From positions 3,753,623 to 3,817,622 of the forward strand of contig OY282444.1 of the NCBI GenBank assembly GCA_958296125.1: 64,000 nucleotides of DNA, written 5' to 3'. The notes beneath the pieces are model-generated. The model saw nothing but the letters and a program-made list of their open reading frames with translations, searched no databases and had not been told where the DNA came from. This document shows, one piece after another, positions 1-63,900 of this stretch (its first letter is position 1; each line of letters opens with the position of its first letter). Position numbers and translations under genes: made by a program. Origin of the DNA: an uncultured Poribacteria bacterium (GTDB lineage Bacteria; Poribacteria; WGA-4E; PCPOR2b).

Positions 1-429
1 ATGTCGTTGGGCGGGTGGTCACCGGATGGGAAACAGGTGCTGTATACGGAAGCGATTAAATCAAACGTAAACACTGCCATCCCGTTCATTGCCCTGCTTG
101 CTCCTCGCGGGCGTGCGGAGGTCATCCAGTGGAAACGGATTAAGTTGCCACAGCTTGCTATTAAGGCTGTTAGCTTCTCCGCTGATGGGAAGTCGATACT
201 CTTTGCTGGGACACAACCTTTTGCAGGAGCTGAAGAAAGGGGTGATTGGAATATCTACCGGTTCGGACTCGTTGGCAAAGAGCTCACGCAGTTGACCAAC
301 AATCAGGGTGATAATAATAGTGGTCCCCGCGAATGGAACTCACGACTGTCCATCTCGCCACAGAGGTTGACTCCAACGCAATGGGGAGAGATAAAAGGAA
401 CCAAATTACCTTTGGAATTAACCAGGTGA
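1..429 (+). CDS. C-terminal part of a TolB/PD40-type beta-propeller protein (5' end outside window)
   Basis: The frame is open from the first base, so the ATG at position 1 need not be the true start. Two PD40/WD40-like strands are visible, WSPDGKQVLYTEA near residue 7 and SFSADGKSILFAG near residue 58, typical of TolB-type propeller repeats. The last 25 residues contain LSISPQRLTPTQWGEIKG. This resembles the C-terminal KLATQWGAIKAR-type ending of the LamG proteins 32-38 kb away, so the protein is probably exported with them. The substrate or partner is unknown. A bidirectional terminator hairpin follows at 585-618. Confidence 0.6.
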   Translation: MSLGGWSPDGKQVLYTEAIKSNVNTAIPFIALLAPRGRAEVIQWKRIKLPQLAIKAVSFSADGKSILFAGTQPFAGAEERGDWNIYRFGLVGKELTQLTNNQGDNNSGPREWNSRLSISPQRLTPTQWGEIKGTKLPLELTR

Positions 430-28046: not shown

Positions 28047-29420
28047 TTATGTCCACTCCTGTTTCAATTCTCGGCACCGTTTCGCAATCCGCGCTAGCCC
28101 ATCGCGTGGAGACAGTTGACGGATAAGGATTTTTTGGATTTCGGGCTGCGAATAGAAGTTGAAATCGGGATACCATGGGGCTCTGATATTTTCACGAATG
28201 CGTGCCACTGCCGACAGTGCCCTTACCATCTCGATGTCGCCCCATAGCTCGGTCAGGTCAATAATTTCAGGGTCGTCGAGCAAGGACTTGAATGCGAAGC
28301 CCAAGCCACGCACGCGATACCAATGCCGCGCTGTGTAATAGTCGCCTAGCGCATCTTTGCCCCCCAGAAACTGCATTAACTGCCAAGCGTCTAATAGGTA
28401 CTCCTCACGGCAGTGGGTTGTTAAGCAGTACATCCGCGTCCAACCGAGCGTGCCATTTTGCCCCGGTTCAAGGGATGGAATGTATGTCATTTTAAGGGGT
28501 TTCGCATAGTGGGTCTCAGATTCTCGGAGCCCCTGCGCCCGAAGATACGCTTCGGCTACAGCACTATTCTCGCGGTTATTGACCCATTCCAAATTGTGTC
28601 GGGTAATCATCGCAAACGCTTGTCGCCCTGCTGCCAAATTTTCCAGGATTAGTGGCGAAGTCAGGGAGTTAATGTCGATAATACGGTGCTTGTAGATACC
28701 GTCGACAATCCACTGAAGGATTTTCTCCGCCCCTCGTCCATCATCATCAGGAAAAATTGGATTGAGGTCGTCATCAAACAAATCAATCTCAGAGGCGTAG
28801 TTCAAGGTCCACCAATCCGTGAAACCGGTAACGGTCTGCCGAAAACCCAGCATGATTGGATACTCGACTAAATCGCCGTCAGGGCTGCGGACCCTCGCCT
28901 CCTTTATTTTTCTCGCTTGTTCCGTCAATTCGTCCAGCGTTCGTGCTGCTTTCTCATACCCCGCTGCCTGCACCATCGACTCATTGTATGCCCATATCAT
29001 AAAATCCGCGTAATAGGGCAACCCGTAGCGTTCCCCTTTGTAACTCATCGCCTCTAGGTTATAGTCGAAGATGTCGTCGCCGTATTCATCCGCTCCGGGC
29101 ATACCTTCGTATGGACGGATCCAGCCCGCCTCAATCCATTCAACAAAGTCATCATCGCGCACGTAGCAGCAATCCATCGGTGTTTTGCCGACGAATAACG
29201 CGACCATTTTATCGTGGTAGTTACCCGACACGGCCTCGTAGGCGACATCGATGTTTGACTGCTGCTCGAAATATTCAATGTTCTTACGCACAAGGTCGGG
29301 CTCGTAGGGCCAGCCTTTGAAAATGACACCTTGGGGCGCGTTCTGCGAGCAGCCTGCCATCAAGCCAACACCTGCCAACGCCGATGTTTTGAGAAAATGA
29401 CGCCGCGTTATACCTGCCAC
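28047..29420 (-). CDS. Extracellular solute-binding protein (family 1), Tat-exported lipoprotein, paralogue 1
   Basis: The 457-residue protein starts at GTG 29420 with GGGAAGGGA upstream. The N-terminus TRRHFLKTSALAGVGLMAGC combines a twin-arginine motif with a lipobox, so it is folded before export and lipid-anchored at the Cys. The mature part is a family-1 binding protein for sugars or oligosaccharides (GWPYEPDLVRKNIEYFE, PMDCCYVRDDDF, PYYADFMIWAYNES). It is closely similar to the 29523 product and sits between it and the permeases. Confidence 0.88.
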   Translation of the reverse strand: MAGITRRHFLKTSALAGVGLMAGCSQNAPQGVIFKGWPYEPDLVRKNIEYFEQQSNIDVAYEAVSGNYHDKMVALFVGKTPMDCCYVRDDDFVEWIEAGWIRPYEGMPGADEYGDDIFDYNLEAMSYKGERYGLPYYADFMIWAYNESMVQAAGYEKAARTLDELTEQARKIKEARVRSPDGDLVEYPIMLGFRQTVTGFTDWWTLNYASEIDLFDDDLNPIFPDDDGRGAEKILQWIVDGIYKHRIIDINSLTSPLILENLAAGRQAFAMITRHNLEWVNNRENSAVAEAYLRAQGLRESETHYAKPLKMTYIPSLEPGQNGTLGWTRMYCLTTHCREEYLLDAWQLMQFLGGKDALGDYYTARHWYRVRGLGFAFKSLLDDPEIIDLTELWGDIEMVRALSAVARIRENIRAPWYPDFNFYSQPEIQKILIRQLSPRDGLARIAKRCRELKQEWT

Positions 29421-29522: not shown

Positions 29523-30896
29523 CTAGGTCCACTCCCGCTTGAATTCCTGACACCGTTTTGCCATCCGCCCTAGCCCATCGCGGGGAGATTGTTGACGCAG
29601 CAAGATTTTCTGGATCTCCGGCTGATAGTAAACGTTGAAGTCGGGAAACCATGGGGCTTTGATATTTTCCCGGATTCGGGCAACCTGTGATAATTCCTTA
29701 ACCAGCTGGATGTCTCCCCACTTCTCCGTCAGCGCAACGATTTCGGGGTCATCCATCAGGGATATGAACGCGAATCCTAAGCCCCGGAGCTGGAACCAAC
29801 GCCGCGCTGTGTAATAGTCACCAGTCGCATCCTTGCCTCCGAGGAATTGCATCAGCTTCCATGCTTCCAACAGATAATCTTCTTGACAGTGAGCTGTCAA
29901 GCTATACATCCGTGTCCATCCGAGCGTCCCGTGCTGTCCGGGCTCAAGCGAAGGGAGACGCGCCATCTTGATTACCTTTGCATGAAGGGTTTCCGTTTCG
30001 GGGATGCCGCGTTGGCTCAGATATGTTTCAGAGACAGCGGAGTTTTCGCGGTTGTTTATCCATTCTACGTCATATTTACTCATCAGGCAAAACGTCTGTC
30101 TACCCGCTGCAATGTTCTCCCGAATATCCGGCATCGTCAATGAATTGATGTCGATAATACGGTGCTTGTGGATGCCATCGACAATCCACTGAAGGATTTT
30201 CTCCGCCTGTCGCCCCTCATCGTCAGGAAAAATTGGGTTGAAATCGTCGTCAAACAGATCGACCTCGCTCGCGTAATTCAACGACCACCAGTCGCCAAAG
30301 CCGGTGACGTTCTGACGAAAGCCAAGCACAATGGGATATTCGACAACATCTCCGTCGGGGGACTTGACCTGCGCCTCTTTGATTTTGATCGCTTGTTCGG
30401 TCAACTCTTCCAGTGTCTGCGCTGGTGCATCAAAGCCTGCAGCCTCAAGCATCTGCTCGTTATAGAGCCAGACTGTAAAGTCGGTATAATAGGGTAGACC
30501 GTAGCGTCTACCCGCGTAGATCATGGCATCGGAATTATAATCGAAGATATCTTCTAGATACTGGTCGGCACCGGGTAGGTCGTCACAAGGACGCAGCCAT
30601 CCCGCCTCGACCCATTCCGCTAAATCATCATCGCGAACATAGCAGCAATCCATCGGTGTTTTGCCGACGAATAACGCGACCATTTTATCGTGGTAGTTGC
30701 CGGATAGTGCCTCGTAGGCAACTTCGACATTAGATTGCCGCTCGAAATATTCGATATTTTCGCGCACGAGGTCCGGCTCATAGGGCCAGCCTTTGAAAAT
30801 GACCCCTTCGGGCTTTTTCCGCAGGCAGCCTGTCATTAAGCCGGCACCTGCCAACGCGGATGTTTTGAGAAAATCGCGCCGCGTGATTCCTTTCAC
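29523..30896 (-). CDS. Extracellular solute-binding protein (family 1), Tat-exported lipoprotein, paralogue 2
   Basis: GTG 30896 follows GGAGG at six bases and gives exactly 457 residues, the same as its neighbour; the longer frame from 30962 is rejected. TRRDFLKTSALAGAGLMTGC provides the Tat motif and lipobox. Long identical runs with paralogue 1 (PMDCCYVRDDD, KILQWIVDGI, KHRIIDINSLT) indicate a tandem duplication that has since diverged. It is the first gene of the importer cluster. Substrate specificity may differ between the two copies. Confidence 0.88.
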   Translation of the reverse strand: MKGITRRDFLKTSALAGAGLMTGCLRKKPEGVIFKGWPYEPDLVRENIEYFERQSNVEVAYEALSGNYHDKMVALFVGKTPMDCCYVRDDDLAEWVEAGWLRPCDDLPGADQYLEDIFDYNSDAMIYAGRRYGLPYYTDFTVWLYNEQMLEAAGFDAPAQTLEELTEQAIKIKEAQVKSPDGDVVEYPIVLGFRQNVTGFGDWWSLNYASEVDLFDDDFNPIFPDDEGRQAEKILQWIVDGIHKHRIIDINSLTMPDIRENIAAGRQTFCLMSKYDVEWINNRENSAVSETYLSQRGIPETETLHAKVIKMARLPSLEPGQHGTLGWTRMYSLTAHCQEDYLLEAWKLMQFLGGKDATGDYYTARRWFQLRGLGFAFISLMDDPEIVALTEKWGDIQLVKELSQVARIRENIKAPWFPDFNVYYQPEIQKILLRQQSPRDGLGRMAKRCQEFKREWT

Positions 30897-31392
30897 CGCT
30901 GTCCTCCAATTGTTGATTCGCTTTCCGCGTGCAATTTTAGCCGATCTCTCGTTTCGTGTCAAGGATTGTCTTCTGATTTATAGGGCAATCGGATGTAAAT
31001 GTTTTGTAAGACTTACGCACTCCGATTGACAAAGGGATTGGTTGGGTTGTTGATGTCACCTGAATAGATTGCCATTTGGATTCCGTGAGTCGATTTGCGA
31101 AGGTTTCAGTTCTACCGATCTCCCATTTGATTGCGTTGTGAATCTAGGACGTAATTTTACATTTCCTTAATATTTTTAACAAATTTGTATTTTTTTCGAT
31201 CGACAAGCACTTGCATTTTTGATAAATTAAATTATATAAGAGGTGAGGTATTGTAATGAGCAATACTACACCCACTCAGGAAACTGAGAATGATTACCAA
31301 ACCTATCCCAAAAGTCAAATGGGATACCCAACGTAACATCTAGGCAACTCCCTCGGATTTTTTGGATAGACACTTACATGGAGGATAAGACA
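30897..31392. other. Intergenic region between the importer and the LamG array
   Basis: The 496-base region separates divergent genes. It carries a TAAGACTTACGCA sequence at 31007-31019 resembling one end of the MITE-like element, an AT-rich block at 31160-31245 likely to contain the array's promoter, and a 26-codon open frame at 31256. No other gene is visible. Confidence 0.55.
31256..31336 (+). CDS. Possible 26-residue leader peptide upstream of the ThuA/LamG array
   Basis: A short frame begins MSNTTPTQETENDYQTYPKS and ends QMGYPT. AGAGGTGAG lies about nine bases upstream, a fair ribosome site. It is hydrophilic and unlike known leaders. It could be a regulatory uORF or chance. Confidence 0.3.
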   Translation: MSNTTPTQETENDYQTYPKSQMGYPT

Positions 31393-32319
31393 ATGTTACG
31401 GATAAAAGTATCTTTAATCCTTATAACGCTCCTTGCTATTGGAGCCATTTGGAGCTTACCCTCAAGCGTTGAGGCCCGTGATGTCACATTCTTAGTGTTT
31501 AACAACTCGCCCGATGCCTGGGGCGTTTGGGGACCACCCGCCCGAGATCCCGCTACGTTTGATGGCGGAAAAATTGAAACCCAATTTCAAGGTTTGTGGT
31601 ACGAGGCAATCTTCAAGCAGTTTGGCTTCACAGAAGGTCAGGACTATTTCGAGGTCGTTGGTAACGATGTCCCAAAATTTGACAAGGAAATTTGGAGTGG
31701 CAAGTGGGATGTTATCGTATTCAGCTACCATATTTGGCGGGATAGCCCTGAGTTACAGGCGTGGATTCAGGACAATGGCAAAAAACTCAAGGAGTTCATG
31801 GACGAGGGCCATGGTGTCATCAGCACCGGCGGCCGGGATCCCGAGGATAGGCCATTGGTAGCTCTTTGGGACGATATGGACAAGGCACTGGCTGGGTTTC
31901 CTGTGGCGGATAAGTGCTGTCTCGCGTATGTCCCGGATACTCCATTGACCAAAGACATGGTGGGTGGCATTATCGATACGTCCAAGTCCCCAGATCCGAC
32001 CTTCGTGGGTGATGGGGATTTCCCCGGTTATGATAGAAGTAAGCTGCCCGGGCACGCTAATGTGGCAGCCGAAGATATCGGCGATCCCAATATTGCCATT
32101 ATTGTCTATGGAAGAGTTCAGAGAGGGGCCTACGTGCTTAGCGGCAGTGCCGAAATTACCAATATGAACATGGGGTTTGGGCAAAAGGAGCTTGGCGAAG
32201 GAAATTCATGGCTCCTTTGGCGGAATATGATCGATTGGTTTGAAGATGCGAACCTTCGGGCGGTGAACCCGAAGTCAAAGCTGCCCATGACTTGGGCGCG
32301 GATTAAGACTGGTCGATAA
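31393..32319 (+). CDS. Secreted ThuA-like (class I glutamine amidotransferase-like fold) protein
   Basis: The product is 308 residues from ATG 31393, with GGAGGAT upstream. A signal peptide ends near SSVEA at about residue 28. VTFLVFNNSPDAWG, KWDVIVFSYHIWRD, FMDEGHGVISTGGRDPE and WLLWRNMIDWFED follow the pattern of ThuA/DUF4350-type domains, but no catalytic triad is evident, so a binding role is possible. The C-terminus NPKSKLPMTWARIKTGR matches the ending of the six LamG proteins that follow. This links it to them as a secreted set. Family assignment is moderate. Confidence 0.6.
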   Translation: MLRIKVSLILITLLAIGAIWSLPSSVEARDVTFLVFNNSPDAWGVWGPPARDPATFDGGKIETQFQGLWYEAIFKQFGFTEGQDYFEVVGNDVPKFDKEIWSGKWDVIVFSYHIWRDSPELQAWIQDNGKKLKEFMDEGHGVISTGGRDPEDRPLVALWDDMDKALAGFPVADKCCLAYVPDTPLTKDMVGGIIDTSKSPDPTFVGDGDFPGYDRSKLPGHANVAAEDIGDPNIAIIVYGRVQRGAYVLSGSAEITNMNMGFGQKELGEGNSWLLWRNMIDWFEDANLRAVNPKSKLPMTWARIKTGR

Positions 32320-32434
32320 ACAATAGATGTCAACCTGATACTTGGGGCAAGCTGGCCTTGCCCCCTTTCCCCAATTCTCATAATTTTTATAAGGGTTAAA
32401 GGAGGATAGCTAAGAATATTAGGGAGGAATTATT

Positions 32435-33301
32435 ATGTCTCGCATCATCTTATTACTCCTATTTGGCATCTCATTATTTTATCTATGCCCAATAGATGCG
32501 GATGCCAAAGTCCTCGGCTATTGGACTTTTGACGACCAAAAGAAGGTCGGGGAGGATTTGTCAAATTTCGGCAACGATGGAGAGTTGAAGGCAGGGGCTT
32601 GGACACGACAGGGAAAGGTCGGCGGTGCCTTGAACCTAACAGGTGGAGGCGACCAAGCACCGCACTATTTTGAGGTGCCCCATGACAATAGCCTGAATGT
32701 CAATGACCAATTGACCTTAATGTGTTGGATCAGTTTTAGTGGTCCTGGGGAAGAACAGAGTTTAATCTACAAAAACGGACCTTTTATACTGGAAGGCGAT
32801 AAGAAAGACCGGACGTTTTGGTCATCTTATGGATTAGTCAAGTGGCGTGATAGATGTGCATGCGGCACTTTTGGGTTTGATGCGAACACAGAAGGGGGCC
32901 GATCGGCGGTGCTCCCCGGGGATCCACTGATTCCCGAAGTAAATGCTTGGCACCACGTTGCGGCGGTGGCAGACGGCACCGAAATTAAAATCTACCGAGA
33001 CGGTAAAGAGAGGGCAAAAGGGGCGCAACGAGGTCCGTTTCGGAATTCCGAGCAGGTTTTGACAGTTGGCTACGATCACCGCGTGCCGGTGGATCGTGTC
33101 GGCGGTGCGAGACGGCATCTGCGGGGCACCATAGATGAGGTGATGATTCTCGATGTGGCACTGACCCCGGATCAGGTTCAAGAGGCATTTAATCTCGGCG
33201 AAAAAGGAAAGTCCCTCACCGACATGCAGGAGATTTTTTCGGTCGAGGCCGAGGGCAAATTAGCTACGCAGTGGGGCGCGCTTAAATCGAGAAGACAGTA
33301 A
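32435..33301 (+). CDS. Secreted LamG-domain protein, array copy 1
   Basis: This is 288 residues with a signal peptide cleaved after DADA (residue 24), leaving KVLGYWTFDD as mature N-terminus. A single LamG/concanavalin-like jelly roll fills the rest: FEVPHDNSLNVNDQLTLMCW, SLIYKNGPF, WHHVAAVADGTEIKIY and GTIDEVMILDVALT. Such domains usually bind carbohydrates or matrix proteins. The end EGKLATQWGALKSRRQ is the shared C-terminal motif. Unlike the other copies it has an insertion with two extra cysteines (DRCACGTF). Confidence 0.85.
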   Translation: MSRIILLLLFGISLFYLCPIDADAKVLGYWTFDDQKKVGEDLSNFGNDGELKAGAWTRQGKVGGALNLTGGGDQAPHYFEVPHDNSLNVNDQLTLMCWISFSGPGEEQSLIYKNGPFILEGDKKDRTFWSSYGLVKWRDRCACGTFGFDANTEGGRSAVLPGDPLIPEVNAWHHVAAVADGTEIKIYRDGKERAKGAQRGPFRNSEQVLTVGYDHRVPVDRVGGARRHLRGTIDEVMILDVALTPDQVQEAFNLGEKGKSLTDMQEIFSVEAEGKLATQWGALKSRRQ

Positions 33302-33333
33302 GCGGTTTGCGTGCTGTGTAAGGGCGAATATGG

Positions 33334-33373
33334 ACCCACTATCTAACCTGTATTGAGATGGATAGTGGGTTTT
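33334..33373 (+). terminator. Hairpin between LamG copies 1 and 2
   Basis: ACCCACTATC (33334-33343) pairs with GATAGTGGGT (33361-33370), followed by TTT. The short T run suggests a partial terminator or mRNA-processing/stability element inside the array. Confidence 0.5.
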
Positions 33374-33394
33374 GTCACAAAAGGAGGGCTATCC

Positions 33395-34261
33395 ATGTCT
33401 CGCATCGTATCAATTCTTGTGATTCTGTGCATCTATTTTCTCAGTGTGTTTTCTAACCACGTTGATGCCAAAGTGCTCGGTTACTGGAGATTTGATGACA
33501 AAAATGAATTAGGGAAAGACTCTTCGGGGTTTGACAATCATGGCGAGCCGAAAAAGGCTGCCGCCCATGACCTGAAGGGGAAAGTCGGCGGTGCCTTGAA
33601 ATTGGATGGCACCTCATGGCTTGAAGTCCCGCATGATGACAGTCTCAACGCCAAGGATCAGATTACCTTGATGTGTTGGGCAAATTTTGATGCCGGTGCC
33701 TTAGGGGAATCCAGCGAGGTGTCGTTGATTTACAAGAACGGACCCTTTATATTAGAGGGAGATAAGAAAGACCGGCGATTTTGGACCTCCTATTCGTTAG
33801 CAAAACTTCGTCCAAGAAAGAAGTTGGGAAGTTTTATATTTGAAGCCCAAATGACTGAGGGGCGTGTGTTTACAGCCCCCGGGGATAAAGACCACCCCGA
33901 AGTAAACGAGTGGTATCACGTTGCGGCTTCCGCCGATGGCACAAAGATTAGACTGTATACCAACGGGGTAGAAAAAGCCGCCGCCGACCAGAGGGGTGAG
34001 TTTAAGCCTTCGGAGCAAGTGTTAACGATTGGCTTTGATTTACGCATTCCGCCTGACCGCGATGGTTCCAAGGCCTATCATTTTGGTCTTCTTGATGAAG
34101 TGATTATTCTCGATAGGGCAATAACCCAAGCCCAAGTCAAAGAAGCGATGGAGTTAGGTGAAAAAGGGAAGTCGCTCGACAATTTTCAACTGCTCTTTGA
34201 CGTTGCCCCCCAAGGCAAACTGGCTGTCAAATGGGGGGAACTTAAAGCAAGAAACAGGTGA
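33395..34261 (+). CDS. Secreted LamG-domain protein, array copy 2
   Basis: This is 288 residues from ATG 33395 (MSRIVSILVILCIYFLS), with AAGGAGGG upstream. A frame from 33353 is longer but lacks a site and would bury the signal peptide. Cleavage after HVDA gives KVLGYWRFDDKNELG. LamG landmarks: LEVPHDDSLNAKDQITLMCW, WYHVAASADGTKIRLYTNG and GLLDEVIILDRAIT. The terminus is VAPQGKLAVKWGELKARNR. It most resembles copy 1 in the SLIYKNGPF and LEGDKKDRRFWTSY stretch. Confidence 0.85.
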   Translation: MSRIVSILVILCIYFLSVFSNHVDAKVLGYWRFDDKNELGKDSSGFDNHGEPKKAAAHDLKGKVGGALKLDGTSWLEVPHDDSLNAKDQITLMCWANFDAGALGESSEVSLIYKNGPFILEGDKKDRRFWTSYSLAKLRPRKKLGSFIFEAQMTEGRVFTAPGDKDHPEVNEWYHVAASADGTKIRLYTNGVEKAAADQRGEFKPSEQVLTIGFDLRIPPDRDGSKAYHFGLLDEVIILDRAITQAQVKEAMELGEKGKSLDNFQLLFDVAPQGKLAVKWGELKARNR

Positions 34262-34352
34262 AACGGACCAATAAATAACACGATCTGATGCTACCTATCT
34301 CCCTAGAGCAAAGACGGGCAGATAGATTGTTTCGATGAAAGGAGTGTTATCA

Positions 34353-35210
34353 ATGTCTCGACGATTGATCGTTTTGAGCGGTGCCATCATTTACTGTCTT
34401 TGCTTCCCCCTGATGGTTGTTGATGCCAAGGTTCTCGGCTATTGGGCTTTCAATAGCAAAAACGAACTTGGCGAGGATTCGGGTCCATTCCGCAACGATG
34501 GAGAGGTGAAAGGCGAAGGAACTGCCGAATGGATTGCAAAAGGTAAGGTGGGTGGCGGATTGAAGCTAAGTAACGGTTGGCTTGAAGTGCCTCACGATGA
34601 TAGCCTCAACGTGAAGGACCAGATTACGCTGATGTGTTGGGCTCAATTTAGCGGCGATGGCGATCCATTTGGCGGCACAGGCCGGGATCAGTCCCTCGTT
34701 TGGAAGAATGGCCCATTTGCCGTAAACAAGCGATTCTGGACTTCTTATGCCTTGCGGGTATGGCGCAGGCATACCAATTTTGGTAGCTTCGGGTTTGATG
34801 CTAACTTGGTAGGTGGTCGGAGTGCAGTAGCAGATCCGGACTTTCCTGACCCAGGGGATGCGGGCAAAACGTGGTATCACATTGCGGGTGTCGCTGATGG
34901 GACAGAAATCCGGATCTATACCGATGGAGAAGAAAAGAAAGCTGTTGCACAAAGAGGGGAGTTTCAATCTACAGACCTCCCCTTAACGATTGGCTACGAT
35001 TTACGCCCCGATCTGCTAGCCGGGCGCGAGTTTTTTCTGGGAATCATTGATGAGGTTGTAATCGTTGATAAGGCACTGACGGAGGCTCAAATCAAGGGGG
35101 CGAAGGATTTAGGCGAAAAAGGGAAGTCGCTTGAAGGGTACAATCCCATCTTCGCCGTTGAGTCCGAGGGTAAATTAGCCACTCAATGGGGTGTGATTAA
35201 AGCACGGTAG
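34353..35210 (+). CDS. Secreted LamG-domain protein, array copy 3
   Basis: This is 285 residues from ATG 34353, with AAAGGAG upstream. Signal peptide to MVVDA, then KVLGYWAFNSKNELG. LEVPHDDSLNVKDQITLMCW, RDQSLVWKNGPF, WYHIAGVADGTEIRIYTDG and GIIDEVVIVDKALT define the LamG fold. It shares FNSKN and AEWIAKGKVGGG with copy 4, implying that copies 3 and 4 come from a more recent duplication. It ends SEGKLATQWGVIKAR. A hairpin overlaps the stop codon. Confidence 0.85.
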   Translation: MSRRLIVLSGAIIYCLCFPLMVVDAKVLGYWAFNSKNELGEDSGPFRNDGEVKGEGTAEWIAKGKVGGGLKLSNGWLEVPHDDSLNVKDQITLMCWAQFSGDGDPFGGTGRDQSLVWKNGPFAVNKRFWTSYALRVWRRHTNFGSFGFDANLVGGRSAVADPDFPDPGDAGKTWYHIAGVADGTEIRIYTDGEEKKAVAQRGEFQSTDLPLTIGYDLRPDLLAGREFFLGIIDEVVIVDKALTEAQIKGAKDLGEKGKSLEGYNPIFAVESEGKLATQWGVIKAR

Positions 35211-35237
35211 GGGCGGGGTGACTCCACTCCTACCGTG
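35203..35237 (+). terminator. Hairpin overlapping the stop of LamG copy 3
   Basis: CACGGTAGG (35203-35211) pairs with CCTACCGTG (35229-35237). There is no strong T tract, so it may protect or attenuate the transcript rather than end it. A less perfect version follows copy 4. Confidence 0.45.
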
Positions 35238-35305
35238 TTGTGTGTGTCTGAAACCAAACATGCGTTCACTACCCAATCTGTCTCTAAAAGAAAGGAGAAT
35301 TTCCA

Positions 35306-36169
35306 ATGTTTCGTACTGTTTTAGGTGCTTGGGGTTTGTTAATCTGCTTTTTATTTTTATGTTGTTTGACGATGAATGCTGATGCGAAGGTCCGTGGTTA
35401 TTGGGCTTTCAATAGCAAAAACGACGTTGGCAAGGATTCCTCTCCAAACCGCAATCATGGCGAACTCAAGGGCGAAGGTTCAGCGGAATGGAATGCCAAG
35501 GGCAAAGTAGGCGGAGGGATAAAATTTGATGGCAACTCTTGGCTTGAAATCCCTCATGATGACAGTCTTAACCTGAGGGATCAGGTGACTCTGATGTGTT
35601 GGGTCAAATTTGCCAACCCCGGCGATTTTGCCGAGGGCGGCGGTCGGGAGCAGTCCTTGATCTGGAAGTATGGACCATTTGAAACAAACAAGCAATTTTG
35701 GGCATCTTATGCCTTGCGGGTGTGGCGGCCCAAATCGAACTTCGGTAGTTTCGGGTTTGATGCCAATATGACAAAGGGACGCAGCGCGGCCGTTGATCCA
35801 AAATTTCCGGAGCAAGGCGATGTTGAAAAAACATGGTATCACATTGCAGCGGTCGCTGATGGCACGGAAATCCGAGTCTATACCAACGGTAAAGAAACGG
35901 GGAATGGCCCTCAAAGGGGAGAGTTTCAGGCTTCAGATCTCCCCCTAACGATTGGCCATGATTTGCGTCCCATATTGGTACATCATGCGTTTGTGAACGG
36001 TATTATGGATGAAGTTGTGGTTGCGGACCGAGCACTGACCACTGCTGAAATCAAAACGGCAATGGAATTGGGCGAAAAAGGGAAATCAATTGAGGGGTTC
36101 AATCCCATCTTTGCCGTTGAGCCCGCGGACAAATTAGCCACGCAATGGGGCGCGATTAAAGCTCGGTAG
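35306..36169 (+). CDS. Secreted LamG-domain protein, array copy 4
   Basis: This is 287 residues, ATG preceded by AAAGGAGA. Signal peptide ends MNADA (residue 27), then KVRGYWAFNSKNDVG. The LamG core has LEIPHDDSLNLRDQVTLMCW, REQSLIWKYGPF, WYHIAAVADGTEIRVYTNG and GIMDEVVVADRALT. It is closest to copy 3. It ends PADKLATQWGAIKAR. Ninety-five bases separate it from copy 3. Confidence 0.85.
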   Translation: MFRTVLGAWGLLICFLFLCCLTMNADAKVRGYWAFNSKNDVGKDSSPNRNHGELKGEGSAEWNAKGKVGGGIKFDGNSWLEIPHDDSLNLRDQVTLMCWVKFANPGDFAEGGGREQSLIWKYGPFETNKQFWASYALRVWRPKSNFGSFGFDANMTKGRSAAVDPKFPEQGDVEKTWYHIAAVADGTEIRVYTNGKETGNGPQRGEFQASDLPLTIGHDLRPILVHHAFVNGIMDEVVVADRALTTAEIKTAMELGEKGKSIEGFNPIFAVEPADKLATQWGAIKAR

Positions 36170-36292
36170 GGGCAGGGTCACTCCGCCCGTCCAGTGTTGT
36201 CCGGGTCGGTTGTTCCCTGATCCGCCGCGAGGTTCGGCAAACTCCCGGCATTCTCACGAATTCGGTCGCGCCTACAGATAGGAGGGTAATCA

Positions 36293-37168
36293 ATGTTTCG
36301 GATTATGTTAGTTTTTGGCGTGCTGTTAATCTATCTTTTCTGCTGCTCCTTGACTAACACTGATGCTAAACTCCTCGGTTATTGGGCTTTTGATGATAAA
36401 AATAAATTGGGGGAGGATTCCTCTCCAAACCGCAATCATGGGGAAACGAAAACACTCGTCGGTGAAGTCAAATGGACGGAGGCGGGCAAGGTGCGGGGAG
36501 GGATGCAATTACCGAATGGTCAAGAGACTTGGCTTGAGGTCCCTCATCATGAAAGCTTGAATGTGAAGACGGGGCAAATCACCATGATGTGTTGGGTCAA
36601 ATTTACGGATCCCGGTGCGTTTACAGGTTTTGGTGAGGATGGTTCCTTGATTTGGAAAAATGCCCCTTACGCGGAAAACAAGCGATTCTGGACTTCGTAC
36701 GCCTTGCGGCTGTATCGACCTGGAATTAATCGAGGGTCCTTCTCGTTTGACGCGAATATGACGGAAGCACGAGCGGCGGCAATCGATCCGGATTTTCCAC
36801 TCGTCGTGGATGAATGGTATCACGTTGCAGGGATTGCTGATGGCACAAAAGTAAAGGTTTACACCAATGGACAAGAGAAAGCAGCTGGAGACCAGAGGGG
36901 GGAGTTCCAACCTTCTGACGACCCGTTGACAATTGGGTTCGATCTACGCGATCCGAACGAACCTGTTGCTCGCCACTTTCTGGGATTTGTTCGGGGCATC
37001 ATGGATGAGGTAGTGATTTTAGACCATGCGCTGACCGCGGGTCAAGTCAAAGAAGCGATGGAGTTGGGCGAAAAAGGGAAGTCGCTTGAGAGCTTTCAGC
37101 CTGTCTTCGGAGTCGAACCTCAAGGCAAATTAGCGATTAAATGGGGCGAGATCAAAGGGGTAAGGTAA
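36293..37168 (+). CDS. Secreted LamG-domain protein, array copy 5
   Basis: This is 291 residues, ATG with AGGAGGG upstream. Signal peptide ends TNTDA (residue 25), then KLLGYWAFDDKNKLG. LEVPHHESLNVKTGQITMMC, SLIWKNAPYAENKRFWTSYA, WYHVAGIADGTKVKVYTNG and GIMDEVVILDHALT mark the LamG domain. The end is EPQGKLAIKWGEIKGVR. It has the longest upstream gap of the array (123 bases), which contains no clear promoter. Confidence 0.85.
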   Translation: MFRIMLVFGVLLIYLFCCSLTNTDAKLLGYWAFDDKNKLGEDSSPNRNHGETKTLVGEVKWTEAGKVRGGMQLPNGQETWLEVPHHESLNVKTGQITMMCWVKFTDPGAFTGFGEDGSLIWKNAPYAENKRFWTSYALRLYRPGINRGSFSFDANMTEARAAAIDPDFPLVVDEWYHVAGIADGTKVKVYTNGQEKAAGDQRGEFQPSDDPLTIGFDLRDPNEPVARHFLGFVRGIMDEVVILDHALTAGQVKEAMELGEKGKSLESFQPVFGVEPQGKLAIKWGEIKGVR

Positions 37169-37231
37169 TTTATCTTTGTTAGGATTTTAACACGATAGGG
37201 CGGTTAATTCGACTAACAGGAGGTATGACCA

Positions 37232-38086
37232 ATGTCTCGACGATTTATCATTTTTGGGGGAGTGCTCATCTGGCTTCTCGGTTCTTTTCTGATGGATGTT
37301 GATGCCAAGCTCCTCGGTTACTGGACATTTGATGTCAAAGCAAATGCACAAAGGGATTCTTCTCCGAATAACAACCACGGTGAATTCAAAGGGGGTGCTG
37401 CATGGACACCAAAGGGACGGGTCGCCGGCGGCGTTATATTTGATGAGGGGGCAGATTCCTACTTTGAGGTGCCTCATGACGACAGTCTCAATGCAAAAGA
37501 TCAGGTAACGTTGATGTGTTGGGTCAGATTTACGGCAAACCATTTTGGCAGAGATCAGTCCTTGGTTTGGAAAAACGCACCTTTTAAGGAGACGAACAAG
37601 CGATTTTGGGCTTCCTATTCCCTGCGAACGTTTCGCGAGGGGTTTAAGCTGGGTGGGTTCGCATTTGATGCCAATACGGAAGATGGCCGAACGGCTGCGG
37701 TAGATCCAGATTTTCTCGAAGTGAATACTTGGTATCATGTTGCCGCGGTCGCCGATGGCAAAGAGGTCAGCGTCTATACCAACGCAAAAGCAAAAGTCGT
37801 TGAGCAACAGAGAGGGGCATTTCGACCCACTGAATTCCCGTTGACCATCGGCTTCGATTTGCGGGATCCGGGAGCTGGCCAAGTACGCCGGGATCAGTTG
37901 GGGTATGTTCAAGGAATCGTGGATGAAGTGGTGGTCCTCAGCCACGCGTTGACCGCTGCTGAGGTCAAGGAGGTCAAAGAGCTAGGGGACCGGGGGAAGT
38001 CTCTCGACAACTATGTTCCAGTCGCTGCGGTTGAATCCTCTGGCAAGTTAGCCGTTAAATGGGGGGCGATCAAAGCGCGAAGGTGA
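37232..38086 (+). CDS. Secreted LamG-domain protein, array copy 6
   Basis: This is 284 residues, ATG with AGGAGG upstream. Signal peptide ends MDVDA (residue 25), then KLLGYWTFDVKANAQ. FEVPHDDSLNAKDQVTLMCW, RDQSLVWKNAPF, WYHVAAVADGKEVSVYTNA and GIVDEVVVLSHALT define the fold. It is the most divergent at the N-terminal part of the LamG domain and ends SSGKLAVKWGAIKARR. It is the last of the array, followed by the tRNA-Leu. Confidence 0.85.
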   Translation: MSRRFIIFGGVLIWLLGSFLMDVDAKLLGYWTFDVKANAQRDSSPNNNHGEFKGGAAWTPKGRVAGGVIFDEGADSYFEVPHDDSLNAKDQVTLMCWVRFTANHFGRDQSLVWKNAPFKETNKRFWASYSLRTFREGFKLGGFAFDANTEDGRTAAVDPDFLEVNTWYHVAAVADGKEVSVYTNAKAKVVEQQRGAFRPTEFPLTIGFDLRDPGAGQVRRDQLGYVQGIVDEVVVLSHALTAAEVKEVKELGDRGKSLDNYVPVAAVESSGKLAVKWGAIKARR

Positions 38087-38388: not shown

Positions 38389-40236
38389 TTACCGGATCAC
38401 CGCGAACTTTCCACTCACCGAATTCTTTCCCTTCTGACCGTATCTCAAGGTTTCAATGTGATACACGTAGATACCGGCAGCGATCCGTTTCCCTTCCTCA
38501 TTCCGTCCATCCCAACGTTGAATTGAGGTATTGTTGCGGTGATCAATCTGTTTAATGAGATCTCCGGTGCTGTTGTAGATCCGGATCGTCGCGCGGTGGG
38601 GTAGATTGCGAAACGCCATTGGATTCGCTCCCCCATTCAGACGGTATGGATTTGGGACAAAGATCACTTTATCTAGGTTCGATTCGGGAGATGCAATGGA
38701 CTCTTCAGGGATGGTGACCTCCACGATCTGGGAGAGTTTACCCTCTCCGCTGGATGGATTTGTCGCAGTGATCGCGTAGAAATACTGCAAACCCGGATGC
38801 ACATTCCGATCAACAAAAGTGGGAGTTTCCGATGGAACCGATGCAATCTGCGTCCATGGGGCGCGTCCGGTGTGGTTGCGATAGATAAGATATCGACCGA
38901 TATGGCGCGTAGATTTTGTCCAATCCAGGATAATCTGGTCCCCATTGCGTGTCGCTGTTAAGCCTAGCGGCGCATCCGGGACATGACTTGGAGCAATACG
39001 AACTTCTGAGGAATCAAATTCAAGCAGCTGCCCGCTAGAATGGACAGGACGGATCTTGTAGGTGTACTCCACGCCGGCCCGAATCTCTGTGTCTTCAAAG
39101 GTAGTTCCTTTGATAATTTGCCCAATTTGCCGGAATTCACTCTGATCCGTCTTTTGCCTCAAGACAGCATACCCCCCCACGCCTAGATTGATTGCTGGCT
39201 CCCATTTTAATCGGACAGTTCCCCTTACAACTTCAGCGGTCAACCGTTGCGGCGTAAAGGTAACGGTTCTCGCCACATTGATATTCTGCTGTAGGTCTGC
39301 CAAGTTTTCACCTGCGACGAGGGCAAAAGTAACAACGATAAACTGCTTGGCTGGTATGTCATAAGGGCCTGCTGAGATAATGGATGCATAATCCCAAGGC
39401 GGGAGGTTAAGTGCCTCTAAATCGGCCCGACTCGTAGCAAAAGCTGTCGGATCGGTCATGAAAGCGGATCGGCTTTCATCTAAAAACAGGTTAGCAGTTG
39501 GTCGCCCTTCGGGATCGAAAAACAGGAAAATCTGGCGGGTGCTTAACTTTCCATCGAGCAAGGTGAGTCCAGTATGAACTCGATTGAGTCCATCGCTATC
39601 ATCCCCATCGTAGGTAAATAACGTTTGATGTGCTTCATCCCAATCCACCCAATCCCGGCTTAATTCCCCAGCTGCTAAATCTGTTCCATCAACATCCCAA
39701 TTTGCCATCGTTGCGACGTAAATCCCTTTAAGCTCTCCATCGCTATTGTTAGTGACAACCAGCCTTATCACAACGAAATCGTCTGCATTGGGCTGATTAT
39801 TGGTGTTCCAAGAAAAGCTCTGCTGGTCAACTGAAATATTGAGCGGGAAGCCATCGGTCCCGGAGGAATCGTATTGTGCGATAATTGTCTGTCGCTCATC
39901 AGGATCTATTTTTTCGATATTCGTTGATGTGGGCTCCCACTCCCCAATTTTGAGGGGACCGGGTTCAGCGGGATCTAAATCCCACGCACTCGCCACATTT
40001 CCATTCGCATCACCGATCCAAATCTCCGACAACTCGTGGAGATAGTAGGTATCTCCGGATTTGGGAAATCTAAAGTTGGCAGCGAGCGCATCTTCCCGGA
40101 CCGCGCCGAGTGAACCGGAACCGACTATGTGAACTTCGACATTTCCTGATGTGTGGACTTGAGCAGAACCGATATTTGGGTTGATCAGGCTAATGAAAAG
40201 CCAAATCGCACCTAGAAGGGTTTTCTGAGTTTTCAT
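38389..40236 (-). CDS. Secreted protein with FN3 domains and a FlgD/T9SS-like C-terminal domain
   Basis: This 615-residue product has a signal peptide (about 1-25, MKTQKTLLGAIWLFISLINP). A beta-rich N-terminal region of about 300 residues is unassigned. Two fibronectin type III domains follow (about 335-420, with RLKWEPAINLGVGGYAVLRQ, and about 425-515, with ILDWTKSTRHIGRYLIYRN). The last 90 residues (VIFVPNPYRLNG, IRIYNSTGDLI, WDGRNEEGKRIAAGIYVYHI) match the FlgD Ig-like or type-A sorting domain. It is predicted extracellular or outer-surface, with adhesion or glycan binding likely. Function is not established. Confidence 0.75.
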   Translation of the reverse strand: MKTQKTLLGAIWLFISLINPNIGSAQVHTSGNVEVHIVGSGSLGAVREDALAANFRFPKSGDTYYLHELSEIWIGDANGNVASAWDLDPAEPGPLKIGEWEPTSTNIEKIDPDERQTIIAQYDSSGTDGFPLNISVDQQSFSWNTNNQPNADDFVVIRLVVTNNSDGELKGIYVATMANWDVDGTDLAAGELSRDWVDWDEAHQTLFTYDGDDSDGLNRVHTGLTLLDGKLSTRQIFLFFDPEGRPTANLFLDESRSAFMTDPTAFATSRADLEALNLPPWDYASIISAGPYDIPAKQFIVVTFALVAGENLADLQQNINVARTVTFTPQRLTAEVVRGTVRLKWEPAINLGVGGYAVLRQKTDQSEFRQIGQIIKGTTFEDTEIRAGVEYTYKIRPVHSSGQLLEFDSSEVRIAPSHVPDAPLGLTATRNGDQIILDWTKSTRHIGRYLIYRNHTGRAPWTQIASVPSETPTFVDRNVHPGLQYFYAITATNPSSGEGKLSQIVEVTIPEESIASPESNLDKVIFVPNPYRLNGGANPMAFRNLPHRATIRIYNSTGDLIKQIDHRNNTSIQRWDGRNEEGKRIAAGIYVYHIETLRYGQKGKNSVSGKFAVIR

Positions 40237-52771: not shown

Positions 52772-54535
52772 ATGAAAACAATACTTTCTTGGATGCTTAC
52801 ACTTATTTTTGTGCCGTTTACGTTTCTACCAAACACCTTCGCCCAAGATTCCCCACAATGGCACCTACCCGAAGGTGCCAAAGCGCGCCTGGGCAAAGGG
52901 CGGCTATCTGGCAATATCGCGTATTCTCCCGATGGCACTCGGCTCGCGGTGGCGAGCACCATCGGTATTTGGCTCTACGATACCGCCACAGGTCAAGAGG
53001 TCGCTCTGTTGACCGGGCATACGGGGTATGTCAATAGCGTAGCGTTCAGCCCCGATGGAAACACACTGGCCAGTGGGAGCGGCGACCAGACGGTGCGGCT
53101 GTGGGATATGAACAGGGGGGCGCACAAGCGCACCCTCACCGGGCATACGGGTTGGGTCAATAGCGTAGCGTTCAGTCCCGATGGAAATACACTGGCCAGT
53201 GGGAGTGGGGACGAGACGGTGCGGCTGTGGAAGGTGAACACGGGGGCGCACAAACGCACCCTCACCGGGCATACGGGTTGGGTCAATAGCGTAGCATTCA
53301 GTCCCGATGGGAGGGCACTGGCTAGTGGGAGTTGGAGAGAGATTCGGCTGTGGGAGATGAACAGGGGGGCGCACAAACGCACCCTCACCGGGCATACGGG
53401 GGTTGATAGCGTAGCGTTCAGCCCCGATGGAAACACACTGGCCAGTGGGAGTTGGAGAGAGATTCGGCTGTGGGAGATGAACACGGGAGCGCACAAGCGC
53501 ACCCTCACCGGGCATACAAGTGCGGTCAGGAGCGTAGCGTTCAGTCCTGATAGAAACACACTCGCCACTGGGAGTTGGAGAGAGATTCGACTGTGGGATG
53601 CGAACACGGGCGCGCACAAACGCACCCTCACCGGGCATACGGGTTGGGTCTTAAGCGTAGCGTTCAGTCCCGATGGAAACACACTCGCCAGTGGGAGTTC
53701 GGACGCTACGGTTCGGCTGTGGGATGTGAACACGGGCGCGCACCAACGCACCCTCACCGGGCATACAAGGGTGGTCAATAGCGTAGCGTTCAGTCCCGAT
53801 GGGAGGGCACTCGCCAGTGGGGGTGGGGACGGCACAATCCTCCTGTGGGAGCTCACTCCCACAACGGAACCATCACGACTCGGAGATGTCAATCGCGATG
53901 GTGTGGTGAACATTTTGGATTTGGTGTTCGTTGGATCAAACTTGGGACAGACGGGACCGAATGATGCCGACATCAACGGGGATGGCATTATTGATATTCG
54001 GGATCTCGTTCAGGTTGCTAGTGCACTTAGTGAAACGATAACCCCCGCCGCCCCGATTGCATACTTGTCCCCTGAAAATGGTAAGAAAGGCGGTTTGTTG
54101 AATCTCAACCGAGGTATGATTCAGGCATGGCTTGATATGGCGCACGTGGCAGATGACGGTTCGATCACCTATCGCCGCGGTATTGCTAACCTCAAACGAT
54201 TGCTCTTGACCGTAGAGAACACAGATCTGCGTTCCTTACCTGACAAAACTGCCCTACTCCCCAACTACCCCAACCCGTTCAATCCGGAGACGTGGATACC
54301 GTATCAACTCGCCCACGCCGCTGATGTCGAAGTCACCATTTATGATATAAAGGGGGCGGTCGTGCGTCAATTAGCACTCGGACATCAGGCGGTGGGGGAT
54401 TATACGGGACGGTCAAAGGCGGCGTATTGGGATGGACGCAATGAAACTGGCGAATCGGTCGCAAGCGGCATCTATTTCTACCAACTCCGGGCGGGTGATT
54501 ATGCCGCCACGAAGCGGATGGTCATCCTCAAGTAG
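52772..54535 (+). CDS. Secreted WD40 propeller protein with dockerin-like and FlgD/T9SS-like C-terminal domains
   Basis: This 587-residue product starts with a signal peptide (about 1-24, to NTFA). About residues 45-371 contain eight WD40 blades; the last seven share LTGHTGWVNSVAFSPDG and GAHKRT with almost identical codons. GDVNRDGVVNILDLV and DADINGDGIIDIRDLVQ (about 375-425) are paired dockerin-type calcium loops. The C-terminal 95 residues carry LLPNYPNPFNPETWIPYQL, VTIYDIKG, WDGRNETG and SGIYFYQL, a FlgD-like/type-A sorting domain. It is probably an exported protein-interaction scaffold. Two hairpins follow. Confidence 0.8.
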   Translation: MKTILSWMLTLIFVPFTFLPNTFAQDSPQWHLPEGAKARLGKGRLSGNIAYSPDGTRLAVASTIGIWLYDTATGQEVALLTGHTGYVNSVAFSPDGNTLASGSGDQTVRLWDMNRGAHKRTLTGHTGWVNSVAFSPDGNTLASGSGDETVRLWKVNTGAHKRTLTGHTGWVNSVAFSPDGRALASGSWREIRLWEMNRGAHKRTLTGHTGVDSVAFSPDGNTLASGSWREIRLWEMNTGAHKRTLTGHTSAVRSVAFSPDRNTLATGSWREIRLWDANTGAHKRTLTGHTGWVLSVAFSPDGNTLASGSSDATVRLWDVNTGAHQRTLTGHTRVVNSVAFSPDGRALASGGGDGTILLWELTPTTEPSRLGDVNRDGVVNILDLVFVGSNLGQTGPNDADINGDGIIDIRDLVQVASALSETITPAAPIAYLSPENGKKGGLLNLNRGMIQAWLDMAHVADDGSITYRRGIANLKRLLLTVENTDLRSLPDKTALLPNYPNPFNPETWIPYQLAHAADVEVTIYDIKGAVVRQLALGHQAVGDYTGRSKAAYWDGRNETGESVASGIYFYQLRAGDYAATKRMVILK

Positions 54536-60934: not shown

Positions 60935-63900
60935 ATGAAACAGATCTTTCAACGTATCTATCAAGTCCTGACAATCAGTTTCGCGTTCGTTTTCGTTATG
61001 TTATTCATCGGCTGTAGGCAGGAGGTTACCCGCAAAGCTGATTGGGAAACTCATTTCACGGACCTCTACTTCGCCGACCCCCAATACGGCTGGATTGTTG
61101 GAGAAAAAGGGGTCATCGTTCACACAAACAATGGTGGTAAAACATGGAACCGCCAAGAAGTTGGAACAGGGGAGGATTTCAAAGCGGTCTACTTTACGAA
61201 CTTAAAATACGGTTGGGCAGTGGGAGACAACGGTGTCATCGCCTCGACCGATGATGGCGGCAGACACTGGTATCTCCAGGACAGCAATACATCCGGCATG
61301 CTTAGAGATGTCGTCTTTGCTGACTCCGACGAGGGCTGGGTTGTAGGAGAAGATAACTATGTAATCGCTACAAAGAACGGTGGAAAGACGTGGAAACGCC
61401 AGAGCTATGTAAGTGACTTTTCCCTCAACGGTGTCTGGTTCGTCAATGATCAGCGAGGTTGGGTCGTCGGCGAATATGAGCGTATCCTTCGCACGGACGA
61501 TGGCGGGGAGACATGGCGAGAGCAGACTACCCGACACCAATTCGCACGCACCCGATTGGTCAATGACAACCGGCGTGTCGTTTTCGTGAATGAGAATGAA
61601 GGTTGGATGGCGGGTACGGATGGTTCAATTTCCCGTACACAGAACGGTGGTGCCAAGTGGGATATGCAAGATAGTCGTATTCCGAATATCAACGGTCACG
61701 TCAAGGAAACCATCAATGGCATCCACTTCGCGGACAACAAGCGTGGCTTAGCGGTCGCCGATATCGGGTTTATCACGTTCACGGAAGATGGCGGCAATAA
61801 CTGGCGGCTGCTGGACAGCATCACGGAAAACAATCTGATGGGTGTTCAGTTTACTAGTCAGACCGAGGCATGGGCGGTCGGTTGGCACGGCACAATTATA
61901 CACTCGACAGATGGTGGGGGCACGTGGACGATGAGGAGCGGCACCACGGCAAACGACTTAGAAAACATCCAGTTCGCCTCAGAGAACCGTGCAATTGCTG
62001 TCGGACAACGCGGTGCCATTGTGGTCTCCGAAGATGGTGGACAGACATGGGAAGAGATTGATACCGATATCTGGGATAATATCCGCAACATCTTTTTTAT
62101 CTCTGACAAAGAGGGGTGGTTGATTGGAGAACGGAACATGATTGCCCATACCACCGATGGCGGACGAACATGGGAGCAGCAATATGCTGGCATGGGACAC
62201 ATGCTCAATGGTGTCTACTTTGTAACCTCGAAGAAGGGATGGGTGGTCGGTGAACTCGGCACAGTCCTGCATACCGCTGATGGCGGTGCCTCCTGGGTGC
62301 CCCAGACACCAACGGAATTTCACTCGCTCAAAGGTGCCTTCTTCCTGAATGAAAAAGAAGGGTGGGTCGTCGGTTGGCCAGGGGTCGTCTATCACACAAC
62401 TAACGGCGGACTGTCATGGACTTCACAGACCTCCGGAACCTTCAACGAACTGTATGCGGTCCACTTTACAGACAGCAACAATGGTTGGGTTGTCGGTCAG
62501 TTCGGTGAGATTCTGCACACAAAGGATGGCGGTCAAACATGGAGGTTTCAGCCGAGCGGCATCGAGGAGAATCTCAACAAGGTCTACCTCGCCGACACTT
62601 CCCACGGCATCATCGTTGGGGACAAGGGGGTGATTCTGACTACGACCAACGGCGGCGCAAAATGGGAGAAACAGGAGAGTGGGACGGAGAACGATCTCTT
62701 GGGATTCTCACTCTCACCGGAAGGGATGGTCGCCGTGGGACGTAACGGGGTGGCGATGCGATATTCGATTGATACAGAAGAACTCCCTGTGACTTTGCCG
62801 CCTGTGGTGGCAATCGTTGAAGAGCCCGAAATCCCTGAAGATGTGGTAACAGTTGAGGAGGTGACCTACTATTGGGATATTATCCGTCGCGCCACATGGC
62901 AGACTGATTTTTCAGATACCTACTTCCTTGATGAGCGTACCGGCTGGACGGTTGGGAGGGCCGGTGTTATCGCTCATACGACCGATGGCGGAAAGACGTG
63001 GATGCCGCAACATAGCAGTGTCGAGACAGACCTGCATCAGGTTATGTTTGTTGATAAATCGCATGGCTGGATTACGGGCAGTCGTATGCTGCTCCGGACC
63101 GAGGATGGCGGGAGCACATGGCAGGTAGTGAAGGGGATTCTGCAAAACTTCCGTCGCGTCAACACGCTGCAGTTTATCAACCCCAAAGAGGGCTGGCTAG
63201 GGGTCGGTGCCGCGGAGATACTGCACACTAGCGATGGAGGGGTGACGTGGAAGCGGCAGCAGACCGGACTGAACGAGCAACCCATTGTTGACCTCCATTT
63301 CATCAACAGTCTCGAAGGGTGGGCGGTCCTGCGGGAACGTCTTGATGGTGGATCGAGGGAAGGCGGTGTCATTCTGCATACCACCGATGGGGGCGATTAC
63401 TGGAAGGTCCTTGACAACACTAACCAACCCGCCATCGCTGTTCACTTCATGGACTCAAAGTCAGGGTGGGTCGTGCTGACGAACGGCGCATCAATCGTAA
63501 CCCGTGACGGCGGCGTAACTTGGAAGCGCGTTTTATCTGATTCAGATAGTGGATGGCCTCCCCGGCGAATTGGTCGGATAACCTTCCAAACTCATACAGC
63601 GGCGTGGGCTCGCGGAGGGGATGGGACACTCTTCATCACACACAACGGCGGTCAAACGTGGAGAAGCGCAAACGTTCCACAACATGAGGGTTCAAGCGAA
63701 CTTGAGATTGCCGGCGGAGAGGATATCGATTGGCTTTCGCTCTGGGTTGGTGAAGCAGGAGAATCAAGCGATGACACCAACGAGCGATCCAGTGGCACCG
63801 ACAATCCGGGATTGGATGAGGCCTTCGCAGAACAGTTCCAAACGCAGATGAGCGATAGGCATCAACGCGCCGGACGCTTCACGCCAGAAGGCGATCTCGG

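Follow-up and report, generated by a model that had tools for sequence, protein, structure and literature searches.

A phylum-wide C-terminal motif on exported proteins of Poribacteria as a candidate sorting tag

The PEP-CTERM/exosortase and GlyGly-CTERM/rhombosortase systems share a short C-terminal region carried by many unrelated exported proteins (PMC1569441, PMC3237569). The MYXO-CTERM/myxosortase system of Myxococcota is phylum-wide, with dozens of copies per genome, unrelated upstream domains, signal peptides and a basic end (PMC11980579), and the C-terminal domains (CTDs) of types A, B and C in type IX secretion (TIGR04183, TIGR04131) are C-terminal signals on Sec-exported proteins (PMC10202324). 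Here we analysed a 64,000-nucleotide stretch, the window, from an uncultured Poribacteria bacterium (assembly GCA_958296125.1, contig OY282444.1, positions 3,753,623 to 3,817,622), in which eight proteins end in a common motif, here called the tag, that is like these signals in several respects. It is a short region common to exported proteins with unrelated upstream domains and, as far as sequence can tell, it resembles C-terminal sorting tags in general. A search of the open-access literature found no description of it.

PEP-CTERM and GlyGly-CTERM depend on a transmembrane helix, whereas hydropathy gives the Poribacterial tag no C-terminal helix of this kind, with no transmembrane-like stretch in the last 40 residues (15-residue mean hydropathy, maximum 1.5, mean 0.4-0.5). 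MYXO-CTERM has an invariant cysteine, a transmembrane helix and a CPBP protease, while the tag has no hydrophobic helix, no cysteine in any copy and no known protease. Type A and B CTDs are folded domains of roughly 70-100 residues, whereas the tag has about 15, is unfolded in models and is not homologous to them: against 30 CTDs of this genome, hhalign gave a probability of 0.2% and hmmsearch no match, and no CTD family was among the families listed by Pfam for the tagged sets. This lack of homology leads us to reject a truncated type IX CTD and, together with the unstructured modelled tail, sets the tag apart from types A and B. Having neither transmembrane helix nor cysteine, and neither the fold of a CTD nor homology to one, it is therefore not filed under PEP-CTERM-like, MYXO-CTERM or type IX signals. 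Short C-terminal docking peptides resemble it in combining a disordered linker with a few invariant residues; the known ones, such as those of encapsulin or microcompartment cargo, act mostly in the cytoplasm, whereas the tag sits on exported proteins.

In a six-frame translation of the window, the pattern [KR]Lx(2-4)W[GA]x[ILV]K has eight strict matches, each 2-10 residues ahead of a stop, and they fall in exactly the eight proteins to which an earlier note on this DNA had ascribed a common C-terminal motif. The sole additional loose match (six-frame regex) is internal, at 63311-63334. The tagged proteins are as follows.

1-429 (+): 3' part of a PD40 propeller gene; tag of a divergent subtype, ISPQRLTPTQWGEIKG plus 9 residues, at 352..426 (+), from the six-frame scan
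31378..32319 (+): tagged secreted protein, non-LamG, without family match, 'ThuA-like' by eye; tag VNPKSKLPMTWARIKTGR at 32263..32316 (+), from the six-frame scan
32435..33301 (+): tagged LamG protein 1, PF13385; tag VEAEGKLATQWGALKSRRQ at 33242-33298
33353..34261 (+): tagged LamG protein 2, PF13385; tag VAPQGKLAVKWGELKARNR at 34202-34258
34335..35210 (+): tagged LamG protein 3, PF13385; tag VESEGKLATQWGVIKAR at 35157-35207
35306..36169 (+): tagged LamG protein 4, PF13385, modelled with AlphaFold; tag VEPADKLATQWGAIKAR at 36116-36166
36293..37168 (+): tagged LamG protein 5, PF13385; tag VEPQGKLAIKWGEIKGVR at 37112-37165
37232..38086 (+): tagged LamG protein 6, PF13385; tag VESSGKLAVKWGAIKARR at 38030-38083

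The PF13385 matches bear out the six LamG assignments of the earlier note. Its 'ThuA-like' label was given by eye only and finds no backing, as the protein at 31378..32319 has no Pfam or NCBIfam family and no PDB sequence match, and no profile makes it LamG. What it took for a propeller fragment does match PD40 in a profile scan and is tagged, but the gene whose 3' end it forms begins upstream of the window, and there the full frame opens with a signal peptide (locus L259), and its tag belongs to a divergent subtype, SPQ-x-LTPxxWGEIK, common to other PD40 paralogues. In this PD40-family subtype, VSPQGLTPKHWGEIK, the K-L pair has moved from its usual place or is missing; besides window positions 352-426, it occurs on the genome's contig (C1) at 612693-615712, 2693807, 2879514, 3354967-3356574 and 3870012.

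The motif first described from the eight proteins is present, with a tighter consensus of V-x-[PAS]-x-x-K-L-[AT]-T-T-W-[GA]-x-[IL]-K, a core of about 15 residues followed by a basic end of 1-12 residues, usually 3. The K, W and K are nearly invariant, and the end carries a net positive charge. Since the number of residues after the motif varies, recognition probably does not extend to the carboxylate itself. The motif nearly always abuts a stop codon, as might a translated DNA or RNA element at gene ends, such as a repeat, a recombination site or a terminator. However, fourfold third codon positions at the invariant residues are near-random (1.8-2.0 bits of entropy), so that selection acts on the protein, conservation stops at the final lysine, and every match near a gene end lies in the frame of the upstream gene. 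By its codon pattern we regard such an element as ruled out for all practical purposes.

The genome is a single contig of 5.16 Mb, and within it the motif proved to have a much larger scale than the eight proteins from which it was proposed. The DNA pattern K-L-x3-W-[GA]-x-[IL]-K has 33 matches genome-wide against 0 for the reversed pattern, and in each of the 30 cases retrieved the motif is read in frame, with 2-9 residues left before the stop. A tail profile gave 63 matches, of which those with E below about 0.3 make up some 59 tagged proteins; those checked are nearly all at the C-terminus, with the clearest departures placed 24 and 40 residues ahead of the stop. Tagged proteins are small, about 230-410 residues overall and 233-365 in one measured set, and a Pfam scan of 57 of them returned 23 LamG, 11 PD40, 7 Kelch, 5 3-keto-disaccharide hydrolase, 2 CBM9 and 1 ankyrin, together with others. 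With carriers so diverse, common descent of a whole domain does not explain the tag, as had been argued from the window.

A simpler account would make the motif the last strand of LamG, spread by duplication and annotation chance, and it could draw on the 55 LamG proteins among 79 tagged proteins of the other scanned genomes. In this genome, 25 of the 27 LamG matches fall, by coordinates, in tagged proteins, the two untagged ones lying in an RHS-like frame, where no signal peptide is recognisable, and in a protein with an acidic end. Yet over half of its tagged proteins are not LamG, Kelch and PD40 proteins carry the motif, and LamG ends well ahead of the tag. In the AlphaFold model of LamG protein 4 the confidently folded sandwich ends about 35 residues before the tag, leaving the tail outside the fold with a predicted local distance difference test (pLDDT) score below 50, and in a confidently folded Kelch protein, whose fold was confirmed by Foldseek, the tag is again outside, with pLDDT around or below 50. 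Among 29 LamG proteins, mean identity is 62% in the tail against 26% in the body, with the tail exceeding the body in 402 of 406 pairs. As the tail lies outside both folds and on non-LamG proteins, the tag is not the final LamG strand, and we give that account very little credence; the earlier note had proposed this same comparison, namely whether the motif is a normal LamG strand missing from other secreted proteins, and it favours the tag.

Signal peptides are strongly associated with the tag. Under a strict home-made rule, which underestimates, they open 44 of 59 tagged frames but 17 of 166 untagged neighbouring frames (odds ratio 25.7), an enrichment for which the earlier note had suggested looking. 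Among the matches listed from other genomes, a lenient caller found a signal peptide in 105 of 106 long frames, and a lipobox-like N-terminus is present in only 6 of 136 tagged proteins. The tag is thus C-terminal, independent of the upstream fold and associated with signal peptides. Fold independence and signal-peptide enrichment leave a recognition signal as the best class of explanation; the earlier note had offered export, anchoring or processing as its possible role.

A looser pattern was found in 85 of 85 Poribacteria genomes, spanning 22 genera and 10 families, with 14-137 matches in each, while the reversed control gave 0-2 per strand. Taken with the 33 matches against 0 in this genome, these counts rule out chance. 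Over the 83 genomes tallied there are 5,935 matches, with a median of 74 per genome. A scan of GTDB species genomes with the stricter K-L-x-T-T-W-G-x-[ILM]-K, which is a sample and not a census, yielded at least 117 stretches; among the matches listed, 111 of 117 are Poribacteria by record title, and in other genomes the stop follows within 1-12 residues of the motif, most often after three, in 126 of 129 strict matches. The six non-Poribacteria matches among those listed include three internal chance matches (L094, L143, L149). The tag is therefore phylum-wide in Poribacteria and near-absent elsewhere within the scanned part of the collection. Three single C-terminal copies were seen outside the phylum, on contigs of metagenome-assembled genomes filed as Pseudomonadota, Deltaproteobacteria and Thermoprotei (L083, L109, L142); these are probably mis-binned Poribacterial contigs, or otherwise cases of rare transfer.

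In our favoured reading, to which we assign a probability of roughly 0.6, the tail is a transferable C-terminal recognition tag for the envelope, carried by Sec-exported, mostly non-lipoprotein proteins of many folds, and we infer for it a role in envelope or surface sorting after Sec. The architecture of the carriers runs from a Sec signal through a folded domain and a flexible linker to the invariant linear motif and a short basic end. Sec export and cleavage by signal peptidase I would come first, after which a periplasmic or outer-membrane partner common to all Poribacteria might bind the tag as a linear peptide and deliver its carriers, carbohydrate-binding-like and propeller proteins, to the outer membrane or the surface of the cell, or tether them there, by a route that would run parallel to the type IX CTD used on larger proteins of the same genome. 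If the tag does sort proteins, it allows likely envelope or surface proteins, many of them lectin-like, to be listed from sequence for an uncultured sponge-symbiont phylum, and it implies an undescribed receptor. More tentatively, and with the balance of our judgement somewhat against it, we propose a dedicated envelope-sorting route in which the roughly 15-residue tag VxPxxKLxTTWGx[IL]K, which lacks a transmembrane helix, a cysteine and a folded CTD, would be read by a lineage-specific receptor, perhaps a PorV-family barrel of a divergent type IX system.

Several points weigh against an envelope recognition tag. No receptor, protease or translocon is tied to it, the type IX components and the GspD-like secretin of the phylum included, and the neighbourhoods of the tagged genes, which were not scanned systematically, showed no dedicated protease or translocon. 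The sorting role is predicted from sequences and models, the signal-peptide caller behind the odds ratio is not a standard one, and the tails have low confidence in both AlphaFold models. In addition, many tagged proteins are LamG paralogues, so that some of the conservation is due to common descent, and a peptide for complex assembly or envelope binding would look the same as a sorting motif.

This last point leads to a retention or assembly peptide, which would dock onto a scaffold protein, a membrane face, peptidoglycan or an envelope polysaccharide and would not drive translocation. The flexible linker, the invariant tryptophan and the short basic end fit such a peptide, as do the many carriers that are lectin-like or propellers and the varying number of residues after the motif. 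However, no scaffold has been identified, and the near-invariance of K, W and K exceeds what general affinity for a membrane or polymer would need and argues for a protein partner. An amphipathic helix was also considered and rejected, as AlphaFold models the helix below confidence and the hydrophobic moment shows no rise at the helical angle; at a strand-like angle of 160 degrees it is raised (5 of 500 permutations reach it), from which we claim no conformation. On balance we consider docking without translocation a serious yet rather unlikely alternative.

A more specific version of the envelope recognition tag would have it act as a minimal type IX signal, read by an SprA-like translocon and a PorV-family barrel in place of a folded CTD. 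In this genome, 48 larger proteins (frames of 469-3199 residues) end in type A type IX CTDs, and two untagged proteins of the window carry ends of this kind.

38389..40236 (-): secreted protein with a type IX CTD-like end, no tag; CHU_C just over the cut-off
52772..54535 (+): WD40 protein with a type A type IX CTD, no tag; TIGR04183 33.6 bits (cut-off 23)

The end of the protein at 38389..40236 (-) is the weaker of these matches, with FlgD_ig just under the cut-off and TIGR04183 below it. A family of giant CTD proteins that has recently expanded comprises about ten genes (L220, L222-L224, L227, L229-L232, L236), with frames of 2,210-2,378 residues and nearly identical C-terminal CTDs.

Some PD40 propellers end in the short tag and others in a type IX CTD, which is in line with a type IX route for both. 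A PorU homologue lies over the NCBIfam cut-off and is adjoined by a PorV-family gene that also exceeds its cut-off, while across the phylum C25 peptidases and an SprA-like gene are each present in 82 of 83 genomes and PorV-family genes in 83 of 83, with 5-19 matches each. The PorV-like barrel used in Bacteroidota depends on the CTD type (PMC10202324), and PorV-family and tag counts are correlated once genome size is removed (partial rho 0.23, p 0.03), although this correlation is weak and ignores phylogeny. The tag is, on the other hand, far shorter than any known CTD and not homologous to one, SprA scores under the cut-off in all but one genome, and a search for the motor protein GldM, made without a positive control, detected none. 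As SprA falls below its cut-off and GldM went undetected, we call the system a partial or divergent type IX system, and we regard its reading of the tag as a worthwhile but doubtful proposition. Loci of this genome that bear on these PorU-like, PorV-family and SprA-like genes are L209:6851-14313, L208:7892-14404 and L210:7181-13564 (C1 near 2.06, 1.48 and 4.14 Mb). Although published work reports no type IX structural genes in Poribacteria, PorU-like, PorV-family and SprA-like genes occur across the phylum: a 2014 study of Poribacteria found CTDs and no structural genes (PMC3909097), and a 2016 survey (PMC4793230) and a 2023 review (PMC10202324) restrict type IX secretion to Bacteroidetes/Bacteroidota.

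The tag might instead address proteins to a GspD-like secretin of type II secretion. A secretin is present in 40 of 40 genomes, and here GspD is over its cut-off with GspK-like and PilM-like neighbours. No common linear C-terminal signal is known for type II substrates, and secretins are widespread, whereas the tag hardly occurs outside a single phylum. In favour of this route is the prediction that type II secretion brings MYXO-CTERM proteins to the surface (PMC11980579), but we judge the route improbable.

Two further observations concern other genes of the window. Next to the tagged LamG cluster, immediately upstream of it but in the opposite orientation, 28047-29420 and 29523-30962 (minus) encode two solute-binding proteins, near-duplicates of each other, from what looks like a sugar ABC transporter. 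At 6373-8049 (+) lies a QueE-like radical SAM protein whose CxxxCxxC motif, judged by eye only, is apparently split by a long intein-like insert (CVWC...SHNCDTPF).

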